A stretch of 64,000 nucleotides of DNA from Odontesthes bonariensis (taxonomy: Eukaryota; Chordata; Actinopteri; Atheriniformes; Atherinopsidae). Each line of letters begins with the position of its first letter. Within the stretch, counting starts at the first letter, position 1. Shown here in pieces: positions 26,982 through 50,444 of the stretch. The DNA is taken from positions 27,087,209 through 27,151,208 of the forward strand of contig NC_134510.1 in the NCBI RefSeq assembly GCF_027942865.1, given 5' to 3'. The translations under genes and the position numbers were made by a program. Under the pieces are notes generated by a model. The model had not been told where the DNA came from, ran no database searches, and saw nothing but the letters and a program-made list of their open reading frames with translations.

Positions 26982-27291
26982 TGTGGGAGAAGGATGTCAT
27001 GACATGCTCATGACTTCTGGCCTAGTTACATCCTGGGCCTTGTTGACTGGTTCATATGAATATTGTTGATAGTTAGAATGAGCGTGTTTATGATAAACTG
27101 CGAAAGCTAGGCGCCTCCAGAGAGGGCCACGTACACTTGTTATGATAAAACGGTATAAAAGGGGTGTCACAAAATGAGCTCGTCGGACATTTTGTACATT
27201 CTGTATGCACATTTGCTGTGACGGTTTGTTCAATAAACTCCCCAATGGACGGCTGACCAACGCGGGATTCGACTCTAATTTCTCCACAACA
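26982..27291 (+). repeat. 5' LTR of the retrovirus
   Basis: 310 bp, TG...CA. It contains a TATA box (TATAAAA, 27154-27160) preceded by GATAAAACGG, and a polyadenylation hexamer AATAAA at 27232-27237, giving a U3-R-U5 layout with transcription start near 27180-27185. It differs from the 3' LTR by T/C near 26999 and C/T near 27180. Confidence 0.95.
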
Positions 27292-27293
27292 TA

Positions 27294-27312
27294 ATGGTGA
27301 CCCCGAATTCGT
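27294..27312 (+). other. Primer binding site, tRNA-Trp-like
   Basis: Two bases after the LTR comes TGGTGACCCCGA. This matches the complement of the 3' end of vertebrate tRNA-Trp, as I recall it, for 12 bases. It is followed by ATT and then CGTGA, where the tRNA complement would continue directly with CGTGA. So a 3-base insertion splits the site. Confidence 0.65.
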
Positions 27313-29644
27313 GAGATTTTGCATCTGGATCCCGGCGGAGCGTGTCCTCTGTGCCCCGACAACCGACATCAGCTGTAACAAGCCGGCAGGTGGGATTTTG
27401 TTCCTACCATTACAGTTGATCTCTGTTAGTGGAGCACAGCTGACGGCTTCTTCCGGCTTCCCCAAATTTAAAAGAACACAGGAGAGAGACGGATCCTGCA
27501 TTCGGTAAGCATTTCATTGTTACTTCTGCGCAGGGGGGCTGCTGAAATTGTAATTGTTGAAATTTTGGGCCAAGAGGAGCCATATGTGTGAATTGGGATA
27601 AAAATTGGGTAAACAGCAGCTTATGTGAGTTGTAAAGCAGACAGCTGTGGTCAGTTGGTCTGGCTTGTGTGGTTGTTGTATTTTTGGGGTAATTAAGAAG
27701 GACTATAGTCGCTGCGCTCCGGCCAATTGTGAATCGGATGAATTCAAACTGGATTAATTAATAGCTGTAAAGAAGCGGGTAGGTTGTTGAGCAACCACCA
27801 ATAGTACCTCTTGCATCCTATCAGCCATCCTTCAATGCATTGGGGGGAGGAACACTGACGGGAGTACGGGGTACACTAGACTCATTAAACATACGTGAAA
27901 ATTATTTTCACTAGTCAAGGAGTAAAACGAATACTGATAATTGATTGACTGGCGAACATTAAAGTTCAACGATTGAATCAATCAGGCTTTCAAAAAAAAC
28001 TCTGAAATGAAAAAATCCAGTTCTATGAGGAGCACATTTTAAGTATATATGTTTATATCATTTTATATATCTGCCTAGAACTCTTTGGAGTTATCCGAGA
28101 CCTCAGTATAAAGACATTTAGAAGAAAGTTCAAATTCGTTTATGAAATAGGCCACAGGAGATTTTTATTAAGAGGTCACAGCGAAGCTGATAAATACACG
28201 TCAGCATCTGTTGCTTTGGTCAGAGACCATATCACAAGGCTTGTAGGGAAAACACATTTTGTATTCCATATATTGCCGACACCAACATCTCCTGAAAAAT
28301 TAAAAGTCTAAATGAAAGAAATTGATAATTTAAAAATGTGAAGATTTGAACGGTGACTGACAAAACTTTTATCGACTGACTTGGTGTGAGTGCGTGGGAC
28401 CGGTCTCTGTTTGTCTGTCAATGTGTGTGTCAATGTGTGTGGAGTCCTGCTGGTTTGTGTGAATCAAGAAAGAGAAGAAAAGGAAAAAGTTCTAACTCAT
28501 CTCATCCCTTGACTTTTGAGTATTCGTAGTATTTTAAGTTAAACTCAGATTTGCCTCATTGTTATAATTTGCTTAATTGTTATAGTTGCCACATTAATAA
28601 CTTGGGGAGATAAGGAGTTGTTGCAGTAATGTGCTGTGATTTTTAAACGCTGAGTGTTTATTTCTTTAAGATTCTGTATTTTCGTTGAGTGCATCTTGTT
28701 ATTATTGAATTATTGAATACTGCTGTGATTGGTGTTAAGTTTCTAAAGTTCTATTCTCAACAGGCAAGTGAAGGTGTTTTGGCTTTCAGGGGGACAGAGG
28801 GTGCTGCGCGTTCACGAGGCTGGTGTGAAGGAGCGTGGTCTGTCCTTGACATTTTTCTGCTGCTGCAAATGTTCGTGTGTGATCACACTTTCTTTCCTTG
28901 TGTCTTCCAGGGGCACTTTATGGTTGAACTGTAATAATTATTAGTTTTCTTTAGGTAATGTGCTAATTGCGGAGTTGTTATCAGTCGAGTAATGAGGGTT
29001 TCGCAATTCTAGAGGAGAGGTTCTGTCTCTAGTCCAGTTGAATGTGACATTCCTGATAAAGAAAGTTTTTCGCTTATGCATTGTTTCTGTATCTTTTGAT
29101 TTGTAGTTTCCCTGTCCACAGCGTGTTAAATTGTATTTCTTTCTCTTTCGTAACAAATGCCATTTTGAGGTGAAGAATAGTGCAACTGTTATTTCTGTGT
29201 TGTTTGGTTTGGATTTTTTCTCTGTCCAGCTGGAAAGTTTGTATTTCTTCCTCTTTCTTAACTTGTAACAAAAAGTGTGACAAACGCCATTTTGAGTTGG
29301 GGTGTGGTTCAATTGTTATGTCTGGTTCAATTGTTATGCTTGGGAGGAGTTAATAACAGTCTAGGAAGTAGATGTAATGGTGTGTTCATATTTGGTTGGT
29401 TAGAAATTCACGTGGTTCATTGGAGGCGGGCTTAGAGGTGTGTTCAGATTTCATTGGTCAAAATATATATTTTTATTTCATTGGTCAGAATTGACGTAGC
29501 TGTGACGTACATTGGATCATCTGGATTGGTGGAGGACATTGTGTGTGGATTGGATCGGCAACATCCGGATGTGAGCAAAAGTTGGGGCAACGCCTTTAGC
29601 CTGAGTCACTTCAAACAGAGTAAGCATTAACTGAGCTTTCGATT

Positions 29645-30300
29645 AGCAATAAATTAACATTGGGTAGCATTAGCAATACAGCAAGTATTGATTAGCAATA
29701 ACTAGCATTGTTTAGCATTGATTAGCGTTGATTAGCAATCAATAGTATTGATTAGCAATACCTAGCATTGATTAGCAATCACTAGCGTTGAATAGCATAA
29801 TTAGCATTCAATTAGCATTGGTCAACAAGGAAGCTAGTATTGATTAGCAATAAGTAGCATTGATTAGCAATAGTTAGCATTGGTTAGCATTAGTAGCATT
29901 TGTTAGCATTTCGTTAGCCATAATTAGCATTGATCAGAAAGACAATTAGCATTGATTAGCAATAGCAATAAGGCAAATATTGGTTTAAATCTTAATTAGC
30001 AAGAGGTTAGCATTTATTAGCAACAGCTAGGAAGCTAACATCAATTGGCATTGGTTAGCAAGCATTAACATTAGCAATAATAGTAACCGAACTCCAAACC
30101 ATAAGTCAAAAAGCTAAATTAGCCTAACATTGAATTAACATTGGTTTAATTTAAGAAAAACCAACCTAGAGCATAAGCTTTCAAAGCTAACGTAGGCTAA
30201 CCTTAACATTAGCATTGACAACATCCAATCCAATAATTAGCTGCATCTAAGCTAAATTTAGCCGAGCATTAAATTAGCATTGATTAGAGTTAAATAATTA
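29645..30300 (+). repeat. Degenerate TAGCA array (ATTAGCATTG-type units) in the retroviral leader
   Basis: About 31 copies of TAGCA, nearly all on one strand, counted by eye over some 620 bp, mostly as ATTAGCAAT, TTAGCATTG and GTTAGCATT units spaced about 10 nt apart. By chance fewer than one would be expected on this strand. It is too regular for random AT-rich DNA but too variable for a simple microsatellite. It ends 150 bp before the gag frame. Confidence 0.8.
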
Positions 30301-30319
30301 GTTAATTTAAATTGACTTT

Positions 30320-30345
30320 CAAAAAAAAAAAAAAAAAAAAAAAAA
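30320..30345. repeat. poly(A) run
   Basis: An uninterrupted run of about 26 A followed by GGGGG, located between the TAGCA array and gag. It is inside the proviral leader, so it may be a tract inherited by the viral RNA rather than a retroposon tail. Confidence 0.9.
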
Positions 30346-30446
30346 AGGGGGAATACGAATAATAAATAAGGAAAATTTAGAAAATAGATAAGTAAATAAA
30401 AAGAAAAAGTCAAAAGTCAATAGAAGGGAACTAACTAGTCGAAACA

Positions 30447-30962
30447 ATGGATGTAACACCAACAATAACCATTAGCGCCAAACATCCTGAACATTCCAAA
30501 GATATTAAAAAGATATCTCTAAAATGGGAAAAACGAACAAAAAATAACGTCTCACCCTGGCCAAAAGGGGGCACTTTTAATGGAGCTACCTGTAAGATTA
30601 TGGAACAAAGGATTAAAGCTTACAAACCAAAGGACAAAAGCAAAAAGAGACAGGAAAAGAGAGAGCTTGAATTAAAAGTTCTACATTTCTTTGAAAATGC
30701 AGAGCTATATCCAACACTGCCAGGAGCAGCAAACATACAAGGAGATTCTGAAATAAAAGATCATAAAATATCTCATGAACGTCCAGAACCACAAATAGCT
30801 ACATCAAGCAGTCATGGAGCTCCTGAGCCAGACGCCGTCTGTAATTCAGATCAGGCAAGGGGACAGCTCCCACAATACCAAAAATCACCCGAACTGGCAC
30901 CTCCGTTCAAAAGGCATTGTCTGAAGAACATAAGAGTCCAACAGCGTCAGCACCGAGTTTGA
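30447..30962 (+). CDS. gag: Retroviral gag, 5' (matrix-side) open frame
   Basis: 171-codon frame beginning at an ATG just after the leader. It is lysine-rich in its first 80 residues and proline/serine-rich later, as for the matrix and linker part of Gag. It has no close motif I can name. It ends at TGA 30960-30962 and overlaps the next gag frame by 46 nt in a different frame. Either a one- or two-base indel has split gag, or the two parts are translated separately. Position and composition, not homology, support the matrix call. Confidence 0.55.
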   Translation: MDVTPTITISAKHPEHSKDIKKISLKWEKRTKNNVSPWPKGGTFNGATCKIMEQRIKAYKPKDKSKKRQEKRELELKVLHFFENAELYPTLPGAANIQGDSEIKDHKISHERPEPQIATSSSHGAPEPDAVCNSDQARGQLPQYQKSPELAPPFKRHCLKNIRVQQRQHRV

Positions 30963-31918
30963 TAGAAATGACGCAGGGACAGTATGTGCCGTGGCAGACG
31001 CTCGACCTAGGGGGGCTGGTTGCTCGATTGCCGGACATTCACACAGGTGCAAGCAAATGGATAAGAGCTTTTGAACAAGAGACTGTGCATAAACTGTTGT
31101 CTGTGGGACACATTAAGGCAGTGTGGGCACTGTGTTTTGGAACTTCTACCATGGAGGGCATGTTGAGACACAGTGAGAATGACTGGATGTTGAGCCACCG
31201 AGCTGATGGAACTGATTTTAATGCATATCGAGCTGCACTCTGGAGAGCGTTACGAGCTGAGTTTCCTGTGGGAGTGGACCTCGAAGCATTAAAGGGGGAG
31301 CCACTGTCAGGAACAGAGAGTCCAGCTGTGTACATTGCACAACAATTGAAGAAATGGAGACAAGAGTCTGAGGGAGAAATCGAGAAGAGCCCAGCTTGGG
31401 TGACATTGTTCAGAGTTTCCATCAAAGAGGCTCTGCCTGCCCCAGTTCAGGGGAGGCTGGAGGATGTGGTGGGGTTGAATTCAATGTCACATGGACAATT
31501 CCGAGACCACGTGGTGCATGCAGTAAACAAATACAGAAAAGAACTGAAACGGAAGGAGCAGGAGGAGGGTATGCAAAGGGAACTTTCACGGTTGCAGTTA
31601 GAAGAACTGCAAGCGAAGCAAGAAGTACGAGATGAGGCCATGACAGCGGGGGCCGCTGAACAGCCATTACAGGGGCAAGTCCATCGTCGACCCTGTCAAA
31701 GGTCAAGAAGAGGTGCACCTGGAGGACGAAGGTCCTCGGGGGCATGTTGGGCCTGTGGCGAGAGGGGACACTTTGTTTACAGCTGTCCGAGAGCACCGAG
31801 AAACCCGAGTGTTCGGCAGGACCGTGGCCAGTCCCTGGGGGGCGGAGCAAGTGGCCCGGCAGGTCCATGGCGTTCCTCTGGCAGAGGAATCCCAGTATTG
31901 GTTTACATTGACATATAG
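30917..31918 (+). CDS. gag: Retroviral gag, capsid-nucleocapsid open frame
   Basis: 333-codon frame. The middle third has the gammaretroviral capsid (p30-like) pattern: a short ESPAVYIAQQL segment, then a long charged coiled-coil-like helix (about residues 200-240: KYRKELKRKEQEEG). Near residues 277-290 is one CCHC zinc knuckle (CX2CX4HX4C, at 31745-31786). An arginine- and glycine-rich basic patch sits just before it. One knuckle is usual in gammaretroviruses, two in most others. The frame is uninterrupted, in contrast to pol and env. Its last about 30 codons run into sequence that looks like reverse transcriptase in another frame. Confidence 0.8.
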   Translation: MSEEHKSPTASAPSLIEMTQGQYVPWQTLDLGGLVARLPDIHTGASKWIRAFEQETVHKLLSVGHIKAVWALCFGTSTMEGMLRHSENDWMLSHRADGTDFNAYRAALWRALRAEFPVGVDLEALKGEPLSGTESPAVYIAQQLKKWRQESEGEIEKSPAWVTLFRVSIKEALPAPVQGRLEDVVGLNSMSHGQFRDHVVHAVNKYRKELKRKEQEEGMQRELSRLQLEELQAKQEVRDEAMTAGAAEQPLQGQVHRRPCQRSRRGAPGGRRSSGACWACGERGHFVYSCPRAPRNPSVRQDRGQSLGGGASGPAGPWRSSGRGIPVLVYIDI

Positions 31919-31970
31919 AGGTAAGAAGTACACTTACACCAGACGTACTCAAAAGGGTTTAAAAACCGCC
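31860..31970 (+). pseudogene. pol: Reverse transcriptase remnant
   Basis: Directly after the gag nucleocapsid region, in a frame different from the capsid frame, about 35 codons read like the substrate-binding part of retroviral reverse transcriptase (a YWFT...GKKYTYTR block). Protease and the N-terminal half of the enzyme are missing, and the match ends before the YxDD catalytic box. This is what remains after at least two internal deletions. Confidence 0.6.
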
Positions 31971-32570
31971 CTCAGGTGTGTCATTATTACAAAACAAAAC
32001 AAAGTTTTCAAGTTAAATGTGTCACGACTACTAAGTTTCTAAAACTTGAATTTAAATAGGTCACTGTTACTAGGACAAAACAAAACAAAGTTTCTGAATT
32101 TAAAATTTAAATGTGCCACTATTACGAAGTTCTAAAATTTGAACGGAACAAGTTTCTAATTTAAATTTTAGCATTGATAGCCTAAATTAGAGTATCTATT
32201 TAGCCCATAGGGAATTACTGATATCTCTCTATCCCACTTGGAGGGAGTAAGAAAAGCGCCATGTCCAAAATAAATAAATAAATATCTAATGAATAAATAA
32301 GTAAAATTAAAATACAACAAGTATGATCTTCTTTTGGGAGGATTATGCAATAAAATGCGCTTCCTCTGGAAGGAATCATGAAAAATCCACAGATCAAAGG
32401 TTGAAAGCAAAACTGGAGAGGACAACCGAGGCTAAGTTAGCCTTTGAAAATTTGAAACGAAATTAGCAAAAGTCATCCAAAACGGCCAACACTAGTCTAT
32501 GAGAAGCCATTTTTCTTATATGTCTCCAATAGACACCATAAGATTTCAGAATTAATAAATCAGAGTAGGT
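31971..32570 (+). other. AT-rich non-coding spacer replacing most of reverse transcriptase
   Basis: About 600 bp, strongly AT-rich, with repeated AAACAAAACAAAG and AAATTTAAAT segments. It has no long frame and no pol similarity. It occupies the place where the catalytic part of reverse transcriptase should be. Its origin is unknown. Confidence 0.55.
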
Positions 32571-32572
32571 AT

Positions 32573-33300
32573 GTTGTGACTCGGACAGGATGTTTGCAGG
32601 TTGTGCATCTTTTGACACGTCCGGATGTGAGAATACAGAAGGGTACTACATCGGATCCTGCAGATGTCATTCCACGTGAGTTTGAAGGAGAACCACATGA
32701 GCGTGTGTCAGAAGCTGTGGGGTACATTAAACTGAGACCTGACTTAGGAGCAACTTCACTTGTGCAGGCTGATGTCACTTATGTTGTGCATGATTCATGT
32801 TGTGAGATCATTTGGGTAATCATGCAGGTTTTGCAGTTATGAAACAGGAAGGTGGAAAACTTTGTGACGGTGAAAGCTGAGAAGTGTGAACGGCCATGTT
32901 CGGCACAGTTGGCTGAACTGAAGGCATTAACAGAAGCATGTTGACTGGTGAAAGGTAAGGTTACGAATGTGTACACAGATTCTGCATATGCTCATGATAT
33001 TTGCTATTTGTTTGAAGCAGTTTTGAAGCAGAGAGGGTTCAGGAGGTCAGACGGGAGTCCAGTGCGACAGGAGGTCCAAATGAAGGAGCGGATTGCAGTC
33101 ATGAAAATTGAAAATTGGCAGTGATAAAGTGTCAAATAATCGTAAAGGTAACAAAATGGTCGGTAAAGGTAATAACGCGGCTGATGAAGCAGCGAAAGTA
33201 GCATCAAAGGGCCAGCTTGCTGTTTTGGCACCAATGGTGTTACTGGAGCCAGAGGTCGCGCCATCACAAGGATATTGGTCATACATATTGGATAAATAGT
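32573..33300 (+). pseudogene. pol: pol connection and RNase H remnant
   Basis: Reads like the thumb/connection segment followed by a retroviral RNase H domain: an AQLAELKAL block with its conserved glutamate and a YTDSAYAHDI block with its conserved aspartate. The first catalytic position has changed (VHDSC where an acidic residue would be expected). A frame break near 32842, an in-frame TGA at 32942-32944, and a further frame break near 33120 interrupt it. It is not translatable as one protein. Confidence 0.75.
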
Positions 33301-33335
33301 CGTAAATTTTTTTTGGTAAGAGAATTGATTCATCT

Positions 33336-33606
33336 GTTTGTCATTCCATCAGAGATTAGCTCAAATAATGGTTAAGTGTTTGTTTAGAAAAGTGCAAGAG
33401 GCATTCTGCAGCAGCTGCGAATCAAGCAGCGCTGTGGGGCCGTTTATCATCCACAGAGTCAAGGGATGGTTCAGAGGATCAAAGGAACCTGGAAAGTGAA
33501 ATTGAATTGAATCTGTGCTTCAACTAAACTAACTAGATGCTTTGCCGCTTGCACTAATGAGATGTCCTATGCAGACTCATAGAGTCACGCCCTAACACCG
33601 CATAAA
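33336..33606 (+). pseudogene. pol: Integrase core remnant
   Basis: Short stretches in changing frames match the integrase catalytic core (an SEISS block where the second catalytic acid falls, here replaced by Asn, and a CGAVYHPQSQG block). Much of the core and its zinc-binding N-terminus are deleted. Stops and frame changes make it a pseudogene. Confidence 0.65.
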
Positions 33607-33966
33607 ATGCTAACGGGTCGACCCAGGCCGGCACCTCAGTTCCCACTTGAGCAGGTGCAAACAGAGTGGACAGCTTACATGAAGCAACTAACTGCAATCC
33701 ACAGAACAATCTATCTACAGGAGGAGTTCAGAGACTTGAGTCTCGAACAGCTGGTTGAGAGACCAGTGGTGCCAGGCGACCAGGTGCACATCGAAGTGTT
33801 CCGGAGGAAGTGGCTTGAGCCAAGACGGAAAGGACCGTACACAATGGTGCGAGCAACATCAACAGCAGTTCAAGTGGAAGGTAGCAACACATGGTACCAT
33901 TTGAATCACTGCACTAAGGTTCGGACTAAAGACACAGACGGAGTTAAGTCCGAGGGAAAGGATTAA
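33607..33966 (+). CDS. pol: Integrase C-terminal domain (open fragment)
   Basis: 119-codon open frame starting at MLTGRP. It holds the integrase C-terminal SH3-like domain with the GPY/F-type motif (RRKGPYTM) followed by WYHLNHCTKV, as in gammaretroviral pol. It is intact in itself but cut off from the rest of pol. The start codon is only the first Met of the fragment, not a real initiation site. Confidence 0.75.
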   Translation: MLTGRPRPAPQFPLEQVQTEWTAYMKQLTAIHRTIYLQEEFRDLSLEQLVERPVVPGDQVHIEVFRRKWLEPRRKGPYTMVRATSTAVQVEGSNTWYHLNHCTKVRTKDTDGVKSEGKD

Positions 33967-34119
33967 CAAAAGGAAGAGGTTAAGATTTCTGACACTGTGA
34001 GCATCCAGGTGTGGGTGTTGGCCGACAGCATGGGCTCAGGAGAACGAAGCCTGGAGATGTTGGACGGGATCCCGCAGACAGGAGAGGCTGGAAGGGTCCC
34101 GTGATGAAGCCACCCTGCA

Positions 34120-34960
34120 GGGGAAGTAGCCAGCCTGGATCGGATGAGTATGATGCAACAGTACACACCCACTCAGACCATGCCACGCCACAAACTTTGC
34201 CAGCAATACACACTAGAGCTAGTCGTGAAGAGGTATCTGCTAAGCTTGAATTTAAGTTCATGGAAGAAACGATTTGAGGAAGTGTGGATCATGGGTCCGG
34301 TGGAGGAGACGACCAAATCACCGCCTCTGGACGCCACGACAAAGGGGCAATCTGGTAAGATCATGTCAGATTGGGTCAGAAGGAGTTGTTCACAATGGTT
34401 GTAAGAATAGAAAGATTTTTCGGGAAAGGCTAGGGGGATTTGATACCATTAGCACTACAGGATAGAATAATCATGTTAATCCAAGAACAGACGGAGTGTA
34501 CATGCACAGGTGGAGTCGGGAAAACAGTGTAACTGTGGAAAATGGGTTAAGGCAGCACAGGATATGTGGTATAGATGGGCATGGTACACTACGAGAGAAC
34601 TGACAGCGACGGAGTGTCTCGTATGTGCAGACGCTCCAGGAGCATTGCCTGTTGTTGTTCCGGAGCCACTTACCTTCAGGGACTGTGCAGTGGTCCAGCA
34701 ACGGGAATGCAGGAAAGGTAGGTTCACATCGGCAGAGGATAAATGGTTATTGTTTCCTATGTGTGGTATTAAGTGCAGATTGATGTTTGGGCCAAATAAA
34801 TTACATAGTCATTTTCAAAATAAGGGAGGGCCACAAATTTGAGTCTTCTTGTGCGGAATTTAATCATAGTACATCACAGGATGGGCCTCCCACTGATTAT
34901 AGAGTAGATTACGATGGTGAGTTTGAATGCTTTTGGAACTCGCGTAGGTAATACTACTGT
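34120..34960 (+). pseudogene. env: env surface-unit region, broken
   Basis: Between integrase and the transmembrane part of env, three short frames (34144-34404, 34274-34465, 34510-34842) overlap in different phases. Position and scattered Cys/Trp-rich pieces suggest the surface subunit. No intact signal peptide to furin-site frame exists. Confidence 0.5.
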
Positions 34961-34963
34961 TAA

Positions 34964-35479
34964 ATGAAAACAAGATTTATTGGGATTTATTTATTTGGAT
35001 CATTTTGTGAAAATATAGAAATGATCATTTTAACTCTATATCTTTTTGGGGATCAGACACACCCAGTAGCTGAGAGTTACTGGATGTGTGGAGATGATGT
35101 TTTGTTAAATGTGCTACCCAACAGGTGGATAGGTCTTTGGGCACTGGTGAGGAGGAACACATCAGTTGTGTTAGTGTATGACAAGGTAAACGAGATGCGA
35201 GGTTTGGATGTGGAAAAAGGGAGAGTTAAAACATATAGTGGTAACTACATCATGGATAAGCACGTTTACTTGGATGCAATATGGCAGCCGAGAGGGGTTC
35301 CCTTTGAGCTCAAAGCACGCAGGGAGATTGCGGCTGGATTTGAGTCTATTTTGCCGTGGATCATATTTAACAAAATGGGGAATGGACTAATTACATATAA
35401 TACAACCAACAGGGAATTCTTAGCTACACGAGTGAAGGGCTTGCAGGCTTTGGAGAACAACTACATGAGACGAGTATGA
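34964..35479 (+). pseudogene. env: env, distal surface / proximal transmembrane part
   Basis: 171-codon open frame. It starts with a hydrophobic segment and has the layout of the end of the surface subunit into the heptad-rich region of the transmembrane subunit (ATRVKGLQALENN near its end). It ends 5 nt before the next env frame begins, so the two are separated by a stop and a phase change. Gamma-type env by position; exact subunit limits are not visible. Confidence 0.55.
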
Positions 35480-35483
35480 TGGC

Positions 35484-35873
35484 TTGGTAGAACAGACAAG
35501 TTTTAGAATGTATATTAGAAGGGAAAATTGGTGTTCGCCAGATGGTTGGGGAAAATGTTGTACATTTATACCCGGGAACACTGCAGCTCATGGAGCGTTT
35601 ACAACGGCCGTGAAGGAGTTCAGAGAACGGAGAGAGGAGCTGACGTGTGATGCTGGTGGAGGTGAACGGTGGTGGACTGGTCTGTTTGGGATTTTGGGAG
35701 AAGGGGGAGCGATGACAGTTAAGGCGGGAATAGCAATATTGTTGATAGTGAGGATGGTTTCCCTATTGGGGTGTTGCATTATACCCATTCTGAGAAGGTG
35801 TTTGCTGCAAGTGATGTTCAAACGAACAGTGGAAGGAATCAGGAGGCAGATGACCATGCGAGACCAGGTCTGA
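35484..35873 (+). CDS. env: env transmembrane subunit, C-terminal part (open fragment)
   Basis: 129-codon frame holding a C-X7-CC motif (CSPDGWGKCC) as in the disulfide loop of gamma-type env transmembrane subunits. It is followed by a membrane-proximal segment (WWTGLFGILGEGG), a hydrophobic anchor of about 25 residues and a short basic cytoplasmic tail. It lacks its N-terminal half in the same frame, so it is a fragment. Confidence 0.65.
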   Translation: MVEQTSFRMYIRRENWCSPDGWGKCCTFIPGNTAAHGAFTTAVKEFRERREELTCDAGGGERWWTGLFGILGEGGAMTVKAGIAILLIVRMVSLLGCCIIPILRRCLLQVMFKRTVEGIRRQMTMRDQV

Positions 35874-36688
35874 GGACCAACGCATGGGAGAGCGGGTCAA
35901 CGAATGAAGGTTATCAACGGACGGTTCACAAGTTTCTTTCCTCGAGGGTGGAACCAAGGTTAGTCTAATAGGGAGAAGAGATGCTGAAGATCTCTTTGAT
36001 TGGGAGTGACGTACTGGCGACCTCTCCTCCCAGAGTTAGCTTAGCAGTTCCAGACCCAGCCGGACGGATGTTCGGCCAGAAGCAGACGACACCAGAGTAC
36101 AGGAGATGGGACGGGACTGGAGGAGCTGCATTACATTGCATTTTATTACTATTGTTGTGTGATAATCCATAATTTTATGTATTGTACTTGATACAAAACG
36201 GTGATTAACTGATTTGAAGGTGGTGTATTCAGTCTATGTGTATTATCAATCAAAACTGATCACTGATATGTCCATTGCCAATTGTGTCAGTCAACTGTTC
36301 GGAGTGCGACCTTGGTAAAGTGGTCGGTCGCCAGTGGGGGGGGCCGTAGGTGAATTTTCCCAAGATAAGAACATGAGTTACGAAAGTAGCAGCCGGTGGG
36401 TTTTTCGCACCTATGCACTGCGAACAGTGGACGAGTGTGATGGCAATGTAAAACTTGTAGTGTTGTTGAATTCAATATCGTGTAATTTAATTTAATCATT
36501 TAATGTGATTCGAGTACACGCATATGTATATTCCTTTTCATTTATTCAAAATGGTCCCGTTGATTGATATTGTAGAATTATTAGAATAATTTAGTGTTGA
36601 TTATGTTAATTAATTCTTAATTAACTATGTGGGATGATTTTCTTTCATTTTAGATTATTTCTTTATTAAATCACTGATAAGTGATTTC
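35874..36688 (+). other. Retroviral 3' non-coding region
   Basis: About 800 bp between env and the purine tract with no convincing reading frame. It includes two short frames (to 35968 and 35981-36172) without recognised similarity. It is AT-rich from 36480. Confidence 0.5.
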
Positions 36689-36697
36689 AGGGGGGAC
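36689..36697 (+). other. Polypurine tract
   Basis: AGGGGGGAC immediately before the 3' LTR, the expected place for the plus-strand primer. Confidence 0.7.
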
Positions 36698-36699
36698 TA

Positions 36700-37009
36700 T
36701 GTGGGAGAAGGATGTCACGACATGCTCATGACTTCTGGCCTAGTTACATCCTGGGCCTTGTTGACTGGTTCATATGAATATTGTTGATAGTTAGAATGAG
36801 CGTGTTTATGATAAACTGCGAAAGCTAGGCGCCTCCAGAGAGGGCCACGTACACTTGTTATGATAAAACGGTATAAAAGGGGTGTCACAAAATGAGCTTG
36901 TCGGACATTTTGTACATTCTGTATGCACATTTGCTGTGACGGTTTGTTCAATAAACTCCCCAATGGACGGCTGACCAACGCGGGATTCGACTCTAATTTC
37001 TCCACAACA
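36700..37009 (+). repeat. 3' LTR of the retrovirus
   Basis: 310 bp, same length as the 5' LTR with no indels. TATA box at 36872-36878; AATAAA at 36950-36955. Followed directly by CTAT, the target duplication. Confidence 0.95.

Positions 37010-41278: not shown

Positions 41279-41350
<72 letters not shown>

Positions 41351-43375: not shown

Positions 43376-43450
<75 letters not shown>
43376..43450. repeat. Compound (GT)n(GA)n microsatellite
   Basis: About 12 GT units followed by about 25 GA units. Confidence 0.95.
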
Positions 43451-43457
<7 letters not shown>

Positions 43458-44223: not shown

Positions 44224-44310
<87 letters not shown>

Positions 44311-48279: not shown

Positions 48280-50388
48280 AAATTGTGTGCCATGCCACCT
48301 CAGCATGGCTCATATTATTCAGATAACACGAAAGCTTCTGTCACATTCAACAAAATAGGATATGTTTCCTTAATCTGTCAATGGCTGCGGCCCTGAAAGA
48401 CTTCACTTTGGCTGAGCAATGAAAGGCTCAAAAACATCAATATGGCTGAGCAGGATAAGAAGAAAGGGGCCATATTCCTGGTCTGTATCACATTCCCTCC
48501 ATATCCCCCTATTTGTATGGTGCAGATATTGGGTCTCAAGCGAGAAATCAGGATTGCGTTCTCCCTGAATGGCAGCATTCGTCTGTTGAAGTGGAATAGG
48601 AATGTTATACGGAACCAATGCATCCGGACTTGCCTGGACATCTCAACAATAATAACACTTCACACTTTCTCCTCTTCCTCTCTATCGCTCTCCCCCCATG
48701 ACTCTCCCCCCACAGTAAGTTTCTCACCCTCCATCCCCATCATAACCACGACAGTGTGGCGGAAGAGGTTTGGATTAGGCCTAAACATACAATCATGTCG
48801 GCCATGACTGCCGGCTGCTCCTGTGGGGTCCACCATGAAAATAAAGTAGGCTATGTGAGGAGGAGAAAAGAAAAAACAAACAGGAAATCCAGTCAACTTC
48901 ATACACCTCTCACTTCCATTTTCTTTGTGCGTTTAATGTGTGAAAAAGGATTGCTGAACGGATGTCAAGAAACTAGAAGAAAAGGGAAAGGAAAAGGCAG
49001 TTATCCTTGCTTTCCCTCGCCTGTCACACTACAATGTGCATGGTTGATAACTAATTCAGAAAACATGCATGGGCTGGGTTTAGCTTTTCAAATAACTTGT
49101 ACGTCTGAATGCGATTTAAAGGGTGTTTTATGCAGCTGCCTGTAGCTGATCAATGCTGTTCCTCTTGTCACACTGTAAGGATATCACATTGATATACAGT
49201 AATTCAACACAGGGCGAAGGAACCCTTTTGCTTTGTCTACAGATAACATTTGGTTTGCAGAGTATGATGTATATGGATGGAGTTTGCGACTGTATTGTAG
49301 TCAGTAACTGTCAGTGCAGAGAACAACCCTGCAGACAGTGATTTCACCAATGCACAGTCGCTGCCTTTGCCTCCTGTCTTTTTTCCCCCTCGCTCATCCT
49401 ATTTTCAGCCTTTCATTTTTTACACAAGGGGAAAATGAGGAAGAACAAAACCAACATATGAAAACTAAAACACGACAGAAAGGGAAGGGATGGGGAGGGA
49501 GGGGAGGAGGAACAGAGGAAGGAGAGGCAATCTCAGAAAACAAGAGGGCTTTCAAAAGTAAGGGATGAAAGCTAGTCAGGCTGTTATTTTTGAAAAATGA
49601 TCCTTGTGTAGTGCTCCTTTTAAGAGCCAGGTACATATTATTTTATCTTCCTGAGGAGACTCTGCAAGGTGTTTTGGCACAAAAGAACTCAGCAATGGTT
49701 CCCTTTAAGTTGTTCACTTTGTTGTCCTTCATATTATTTTTGACAGGTGCATTTCAAATTATTTCGCTTCTCTCTGAAGTCTTTTTCTAATCAGCTCTTT
49801 TGGTTTCTTTAGCAAGGTAGTGGAATGCATAATTTACTGCCCTTTACTATCACAATGCTTTGGGAGCACATTACTGAGAAATGGTCAAATTCACGCTGAA
49901 CTGGAAACGTGCCACCATGTTACGAACGCACAGACACAGGCATGCTCTGCACCTCTTACCGCTCCCCTTAATGGAGGCCGGTGCTGGCTGGCCGGTGGCG
50001 TCAACAGAGTCGTTTTAGCCCCCTCCTCCCTTGACCCTTAAAGCTTAGGATCCCATTATTTGCCTTGTTTTTAATGCGACATCTGACTCAGAAAAAATAT
50101 ATATATTGTCACGATTACTACTGTTTAAGCACCTGCTTAAATCAGCTCAGGAATCATGGTTTCTTTACCACGCTTCAAGGGAGGGTGTGTAAACAAATAC
50201 AAATTGGGACCAAATAATTATGAACATCGATATTCAGTGTTGTATTTATGTGAAATAATTTGCTAAATGAGATGCTTTCTCCTTTGTGGACACAGCAATA
50301 CCTTCAAAAGACCTTTGAGTGTGTGCGTGTTCTCATCCTGAGGAATTTCCCACATCATTACAGCTGCACAGATGTTTGTATTGGAATG

Positions 50389-50444
<56 letters not shown>

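Follow-up and report, generated by a model that had tools for sequence, protein, structure and literature searches.

How can a retrovirus come to carry the terminal repeats of a recent insertion around an interior that is badly broken? The question is raised by a provirus of the pejerrey, Odontesthes bonariensis, that lies on the forward strand, as do all of its features, at positions 26982 to 37009 of a 64,000-nucleotide stretch of contig NC_134510.1 (C6 in our numbering), to which we refer as the window. The element is bounded by a pair of long terminal repeats (LTRs) with TGTG...AACA ends and has CTAT on both sides. An original prediction, made from this DNA alone, had described 310-bp LTRs with two differences and a perfect CTAT duplication, and the same values were recovered here (2 mismatches, 0 gaps). 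Between the LTRs, gag is spread over two frames, protease is gone, and reverse transcriptase (RT), RNase H, integrase, and env exist as pieces. The provirus has nothing of protease, nothing of RT before the start of what we take to be its first catalytic motif, and neither the zinc-binding segment of integrase nor the start of its core. The predicted loss of protease and of most of RT is borne out, as are stops and frameshifts in RNase H and integrase, most of which prove to be common to other copies; damage to env is seen as broken frames. The provirus retains the cis elements, namely, two LTRs, a primer site, a leader, and a polypurine-like stretch. We consider it quite probable that the provirus belongs to a defective endogenous retrovirus (ERV) lineage with its joins at 39 or more other places, that the likely founder of this lineage was a spliced RNA, and that it spread, as we would predict, by means of the protease, RT, and integrase of a relative.

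Copies, shared lesions, and the age of the insertion

Copies were sought across the genome (945 Mb, 187 contigs). With a 421-bp probe spanning the joins near 31.86 and 31.97 kb, 40 of 452 first-look candidates were scored, and 40 of 419 were scored with a 401-bp probe spanning the join near 32.57 kb. Every locus scored with the first probe (40/40, window included) had a match that was full length or short by one base, at 98-100% identity, and the second probe likewise matched in 40/40, at 96-100%. The defective lineage is therefore present, with the same joins, at at least 39 further genomic places on many contigs, and the window does not hold the only copy, a possibility that the original prediction had left standing. 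Six other copies with paired LTRs align end to end with the window over pieces covering 31.2-34 kb or nearby (96.6-97.2%). One locus (L001-L003, C19:26.752-26.766 Mb) spans 13.1 kb between LTR starts and has a GTGG duplication and one LTR difference. Two shorter copies of 7.6-7.8 kb in opposite orientation (L015 and L016, C2:2.99-3.08 Mb; 92-94% to the window) are a separate deletion form of the same family.

The junctions proposed for the interior were refined in part. The join near 31.86 kb maps exactly to 31870 and that near 32.57 kb to 32532/32533, whereas the stretch at 31.98-32.34 kb is rearranged and expanded, with no clean deletion. A loss of about 470 bp in integrase (33263-33310) goes beyond what had been predicted, as do the exact splice junction and the exchange of LTR segments with relatives described below.

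Much of the damage is held in common. RNase H and integrase were compared between the window and 20 copies (21 rows in all), with the open pol frame of a relative, piece L084, as reference; loci that are more diverged or barely covered were omitted (L015, L016, L037, L057, L058, L060-L062, and L064). Among the 19 indel rows of the window, 16 are common to 14-21 copies, one is common to 10, and two form a private, mutually cancelling pair; rows within the integrase gap are parts of a single loss that the alignment has split. Four in-frame stops are common to 18, 21, 9, and 21 of the 21 rows, and five more occur in other copies and not in the window, two of these in more than one copy. In addition, the integrase gap is already present in two more diverged copies (L058 and L064, 89-91%), which places the origin of the defective line before its recent cluster.

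Across six defective copies, the LTR pairs differ at 2/310, 1/310, 0/309, 0/319, 0/319, and 0/306 sites. At the substitution rate of 1.46e-8 per site and year quoted in PMC8672886, the window insertion would be some 0.2 million years old, with a wide error. Divergence between copies amounts to 1.2-3.8% in gag, and the pol remnants of 20 copies differ from that of the window by 2.5-4.5%. In gag, compared across 19 copies, 6 of 1,469 sites have a change private to the window; in the pol remnant, compared across 21 copies, 11 of 1,700 sites do. The window is a young insertion of an older, already broken lineage, and young LTRs surround an old wreck because new copies inherited the damage of their predecessors.

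The gap at 31870

The join at 31869-31871 equals an exact GT-AG junction. With a slash marking the limits of the gap, the left-hand sequence of the relative is CCCATGG/GTGAGTCC and the right-hand sequence is TTCTGCATTTTTCAG/CGTTCC, and the defective copies have CCATGG/CGTTCC. The missing segment measures exactly 1,403 bp in the relative. It opens with a GTGAGT donor at the end of gag, closes with a TTTTTCAG acceptor in RT, and contains the end of gag, protease, and RT up to the presumed first catalytic motif. The join has only two possible placements, one of which is the exact GT-AG. In a 3,001-nucleotide piece, 10 sites score at least as high as the donor and 2 at least as high as the acceptor; the chance of hitting a donor and an acceptor this strong is about 4e-6 per random join, or some 4e-5 allowing for ten joins. 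Furthermore, the donor was found in 6/6 pieces of relatives and the acceptor in 8/10. Because the limits of the gap equal the GTGAGT-TTTTTCAG splice sites, the likely founder of the lineage is a spliced viral RNA that was reverse transcribed. Downstream of the join, gag acquires a new tail, which among the gag homologues compared is found in the protein of the pejerrey lineage only. Splicing does not account for every gap, given that the 198-bp gap, which lies between ACAC repeats, and a 390-bp gap in gag have no GT-AG boundaries.

Since the leader and gag, which lie upstream of the donor, are retained, the founder RNA was presumably both spliced and packaged. Specifically, a spliced RNA that kept the leader and gag would have entered particles and been reverse transcribed by the enzymes of its parent. 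Helper enzymes would then have copied and integrated the defective RNA, allowing its descendants to spread in the germline. Helper and defective RNAs may have been co-packaged as heterodimers, which would lead to recombination and to the uptake of U3 (unique 3') modules, and the lineage's own Gag could help its RNA into particles, possibly in cis. The proposal of a non-autonomous ERV lineage mobilized in trans is accordingly supported with respect to a lineage with inherited defects, while mobilization in trans is something that we infer.

Relatives, U3 exchange, and retention of gag

An integrase-domain search of the genome, in which 150 of 711 candidates were scored, returned 8 matches within an open reading frame 1,426 amino acids (aa) long. 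A relative sharing the LTR, which the original prediction had suggested looking for, does exist: the same genome holds an element with the same LTR type and open gag and pol frames, its coding potential being read from those frames. Relative to the defective lineage, the LTRs of these open-pol elements are 92-93% identical over full length (99.4% over the first 155 nucleotides of one), gag is 76-83% identical at the nucleotide level depending on the stretch, and the C-terminal region of integrase is 77-81% identical in aa, other open-frame subfamilies included. For the stretch from 35.3 to 36.7 kb of the window together with the LTR, nucleotide identity is 85-92%, and the 3' end of the open-pol copies reaches 91-92%. 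Gag is open over 699-705 aa in four open-pol copies and ends in an amber TAG in 6/6 pieces, with pol then in the same frame (one piece, L068). The solved RT structure nearest to that of the relative is from Moloney murine leukemia virus (MLV), and the amber gag stop with in-frame pol, along with an MLV-type C-terminal domain of integrase, points to a class I (gamma- or epsilon-like) retrovirus. By their open frames, the open-pol relatives are candidate helpers or parents. In one of the 1,426-aa matches, L125 (C2:45.10 Mb), the expected start of gag is occupied by an LTR of another type; an open pol frame therefore does not equal a complete provirus.

The LTRs provide evidence of exchange between the two groups. 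In 15 of 17 pieces from the 5' end of defective copies an LTR was present; ten match the type of the window (94-99%), and the other five belong to a second type (80-84%). Both U3 types occur in the defective group and in the open-pol group; U5, in contrast, is identical in kind across the two U3 types of defective copies and separates defective from open-pol elements. We examined site patterns in four sequences: the window, L128, and the relatives L067 and L074, the last from an incomplete copy with a 591-aa open frame. Upstream, 13 sites unite the defective copies, followed by one site of each other pattern. Across 36782-36891, the U3 core of the 3' LTR, 38 consecutive sites group the window with one relative and L128 with the other, and in U5 six sites unite the defective copies again. 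A mosaic of this kind would be expected if helper and defective RNAs were co-packaged. Of the 2,775 informative site pairs within gag, 1,176 show all four combinations, which speaks for recombination between copies, with a contribution from recurrent mutation.

Gag (30447-31918, with a zinc knuckle) is the best-kept gene of the defective lineage, in agreement with the original prediction. It is intact, at exactly 490 aa and with an identical tail, in 8 of 18 defective copies; the window, which has one private frameshift, and ten others are damaged. The intact gag of L100 (contig C4) is 100% identical over 490 aa to an Odontesthes bonariensis protein. Variants present in at least two copies have a ratio of nonsynonymous to synonymous changes that is 0.62 of the neutral expectation and include no stops, where four are expected; for singleton variants the ratio is 1.11 of the expectation. 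This contrast is only suggestive of selection on gag, with p values of 0.056-0.079. The ratio of nonsynonymous to synonymous substitution rates is 0.42-0.44 against relatives, part of which comes from the relatives' own branch, and 0.22-0.33 among relatives.

Alternatives, precedents, and remaining features

The original prediction had allowed for gene conversion, by which an old insertion would have decayed in place as its LTRs were homogenized. Two LTR differences beside so damaged an interior might invite that explanation, but the lesions recur at other sites that have target duplications of their own, and conversion is unneeded because the private interior changes (17 of 3,169 sites) are as frequent as differences between the LTRs would lead one to expect (2 of 620; p = 0.76). 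We ruled it out on both grounds and regard it as scarcely credible. Just as improbable is the multiplication of copies as DNA through segmental or tandem duplication. At C13:38.96 Mb (L112 and L128), one copy does sit directly behind the 3' end of another, and this tandem placement accounts for its missing target duplication; yet matching 4-bp duplications, all different (CTAT, GTGG, GTAC, GGCC, and TTAC), were found for five of the six LTR pairs, and copies are distributed across many contigs. Duplication at the DNA level was thus discarded as the general route.

A third explanation retains the helper-dependent lineage and attributes the 1,403-bp gap to a template jump or a DNA deletion at bases that merely resemble splice sites. 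It would fit with the 198-bp and 390-bp gaps, which are not intron-like, and a bare GT-AG join is expected by chance in about 0.9% of cases. Nevertheless, at the strength observed the chance falls to the 4e-6 per join (4e-5 for ten) given above, and one of only two placements is the exact GT-AG, so we find this origin distinctly unlikely. An origin by splicing, with the open-pol relatives as parents, does have several points weighing against it. The acceptor was not located in 2 of 10 pieces, both from other subfamilies. The donor GTGAGT encodes Val-Ser in the gag of the relative and the acceptor lies within conserved RT codons; because the sites double as codons, their conservation is no proof of use in splicing. 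In 12 of 32 other gag homologues, whose named hosts are mostly other fishes, gag ends in a motif like GPVNPWGGPNQGY, and this conserved motif, typically Trp-Gly-Gly, does not encode the donor there, which means that the splice may be specific to the lineage or accidental. The splicing and packaging of the founder RNA are read from DNA, the gag of the candidate parents is 19-24% different in nucleotides, the contrast between shared and singleton gag variants falls short of significance, and the count of copies covers the 40 candidates scored with each probe. Finally, the helper could have been a different, unsampled retrovirus, with the open-pol family sharing only ancestry and LTR modules. The distance of the defective LTR (92-93%) and gag (76-83%) from the sampled relatives leaves room for one, as does the existence of other open-frame subfamilies (L049, L053-L055, and L059). 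However, U3 modules, leader, and primer site are common to the defective lineage and the sampled families, and recombination requires a common particle or cell; we consider such a helper unlikely.

Non-autonomous LTR elements that keep only gag are found in plants, where the TR-GAG elements are LTR retrotransposons without an env history. In the ETn elements of the mouse, retroviral genes have been replaced by unrelated sequence, whereas the genes of the pejerrey lineage are recognizable and its gag is open. The ETn/MusD system is nonetheless similar in that the defective form exceeds its coding relative among new insertions (PMC6466679). Another likeness is offered by the mouse intracisternal A-particle (IAP) I-Delta-1, in which a multicopy line has a gag-pol deletion and a new fused frame, enzymes are supplied in trans by a helper, and most new insertions are defective; its fusion protein is reported to act in cis (PMC6466679). 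I-Delta-1 differs in being a class II element with a 1.9-kb gap, which the portion of PMC6466679 drawn on here does not describe as a splice junction. The bovine ERVK[2-1-LTR] elements, with their C-type and D-type forms, likewise combine autonomous and defective members with common LTRs, mostly defective new insertions, recombination, and proposed trans-complementation (PMC10924933). They are class II, and in the D-type the central segment has been exchanged and gag is not intact, unlike the pejerrey lineage, which keeps gag and has a gap that looks spliced.

The closest parallel to the proposed founding event is the splice-donor-associated retroelement (SDARE) of MLV, for which RNA spliced from a gag donor to a pol acceptor enters particles alongside genomic RNA and is then reverse transcribed and integrated (PMC2925334, PMC10496198). 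The pejerrey gap likewise corresponds to a GT-AG intron of the relative, and integration was retroviral rather than of the long interspersed nuclear element (LINE) type, with full LTRs and a short duplication. SDAREs of MLV arise afresh in infected cells; the pejerrey lineage, in contrast, is in the germline and has many insertions; its donor lies at the very end of gag, its acceptor in RT. In the literature titles and abstract openings covered, with subscription journals largely outside this coverage, we found no description of a germline lineage founded by spliced retroviral RNA. Defective ERV lines mobilized in trans are known from mammals, and a spliced origin of a germline lineage would be the new part. 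If this origin is correct, RNA splicing can turn an autonomous retrovirus in a single step into a parasite that depends on a helper, with the leader and gag retained and the enzymes lost, and the step seen for MLV in infected cells would have founded a germline lineage here. One may go further and propose, tentatively, that splicing gave rise to a gag-only satellite that persists as a stable parasite of its parent, with Gag under selection and U3 renewed from the active helper lineage. Because the pejerrey genome contains both partners together with several types of U3 and young insertions, the dynamics of a parasite of a parasite can be tested outside mammals, within families of a single fish.

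The remaining features of the provirus are arranged as follows. The 5' LTR (26982-27291, 310 bp) has the CTAT duplication upstream and is followed at 27295-27306 by a primer-binding site, TGGTGACCCCGA, that resembles a tRNA-Trp site; the same 12 bases occur in 6/6 defective copies and in the 2/2 open-pol relatives inspected. The leader (27307-30446) is 3.1 kb long, has 79-85% nucleotide identity to open-pol relatives over the main aligned stretches, and contains 26 ATG triplets and, in the window, no open reading frame of 60 aa or more from Met. One relative's leader piece has a 128-aa frame and a second has none of at least 60 aa from Met; an accessory gene in the leader was rejected on the basis of the window and this second piece. 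A degenerate minisatellite in the leader (29669-29964) has a unit of about ATTGATTAGC, in 10- and 20-bp forms and also at 112 bp, and its repeats can be aligned to the leader of relatives. Downstream of gag lie the RT remnant (31872-32532), the join with the 198-bp loss relative to the open-pol element (32532-32533), and the RNase H remnant (32533-33263). The integrase join region (33263-33310), in which most of the roughly 470 bp was lost, is followed by the integrase remnant with its C-terminal domain (33310-33963). Env and the 3' region (33964-36689) hold only short broken frames, and a G-rich stretch at 36690-36699, called polypurine-like by its position, adjoins the 3' LTR (36700-37009), which has CTAT downstream. 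No Rfam family of structured RNA above the cut-off and no tRNA genes were found in the window. In the flanking host DNA there are four long dinucleotide runs, at 41282-41338, 43399-43455, 44224-44296, and 50387-50443.

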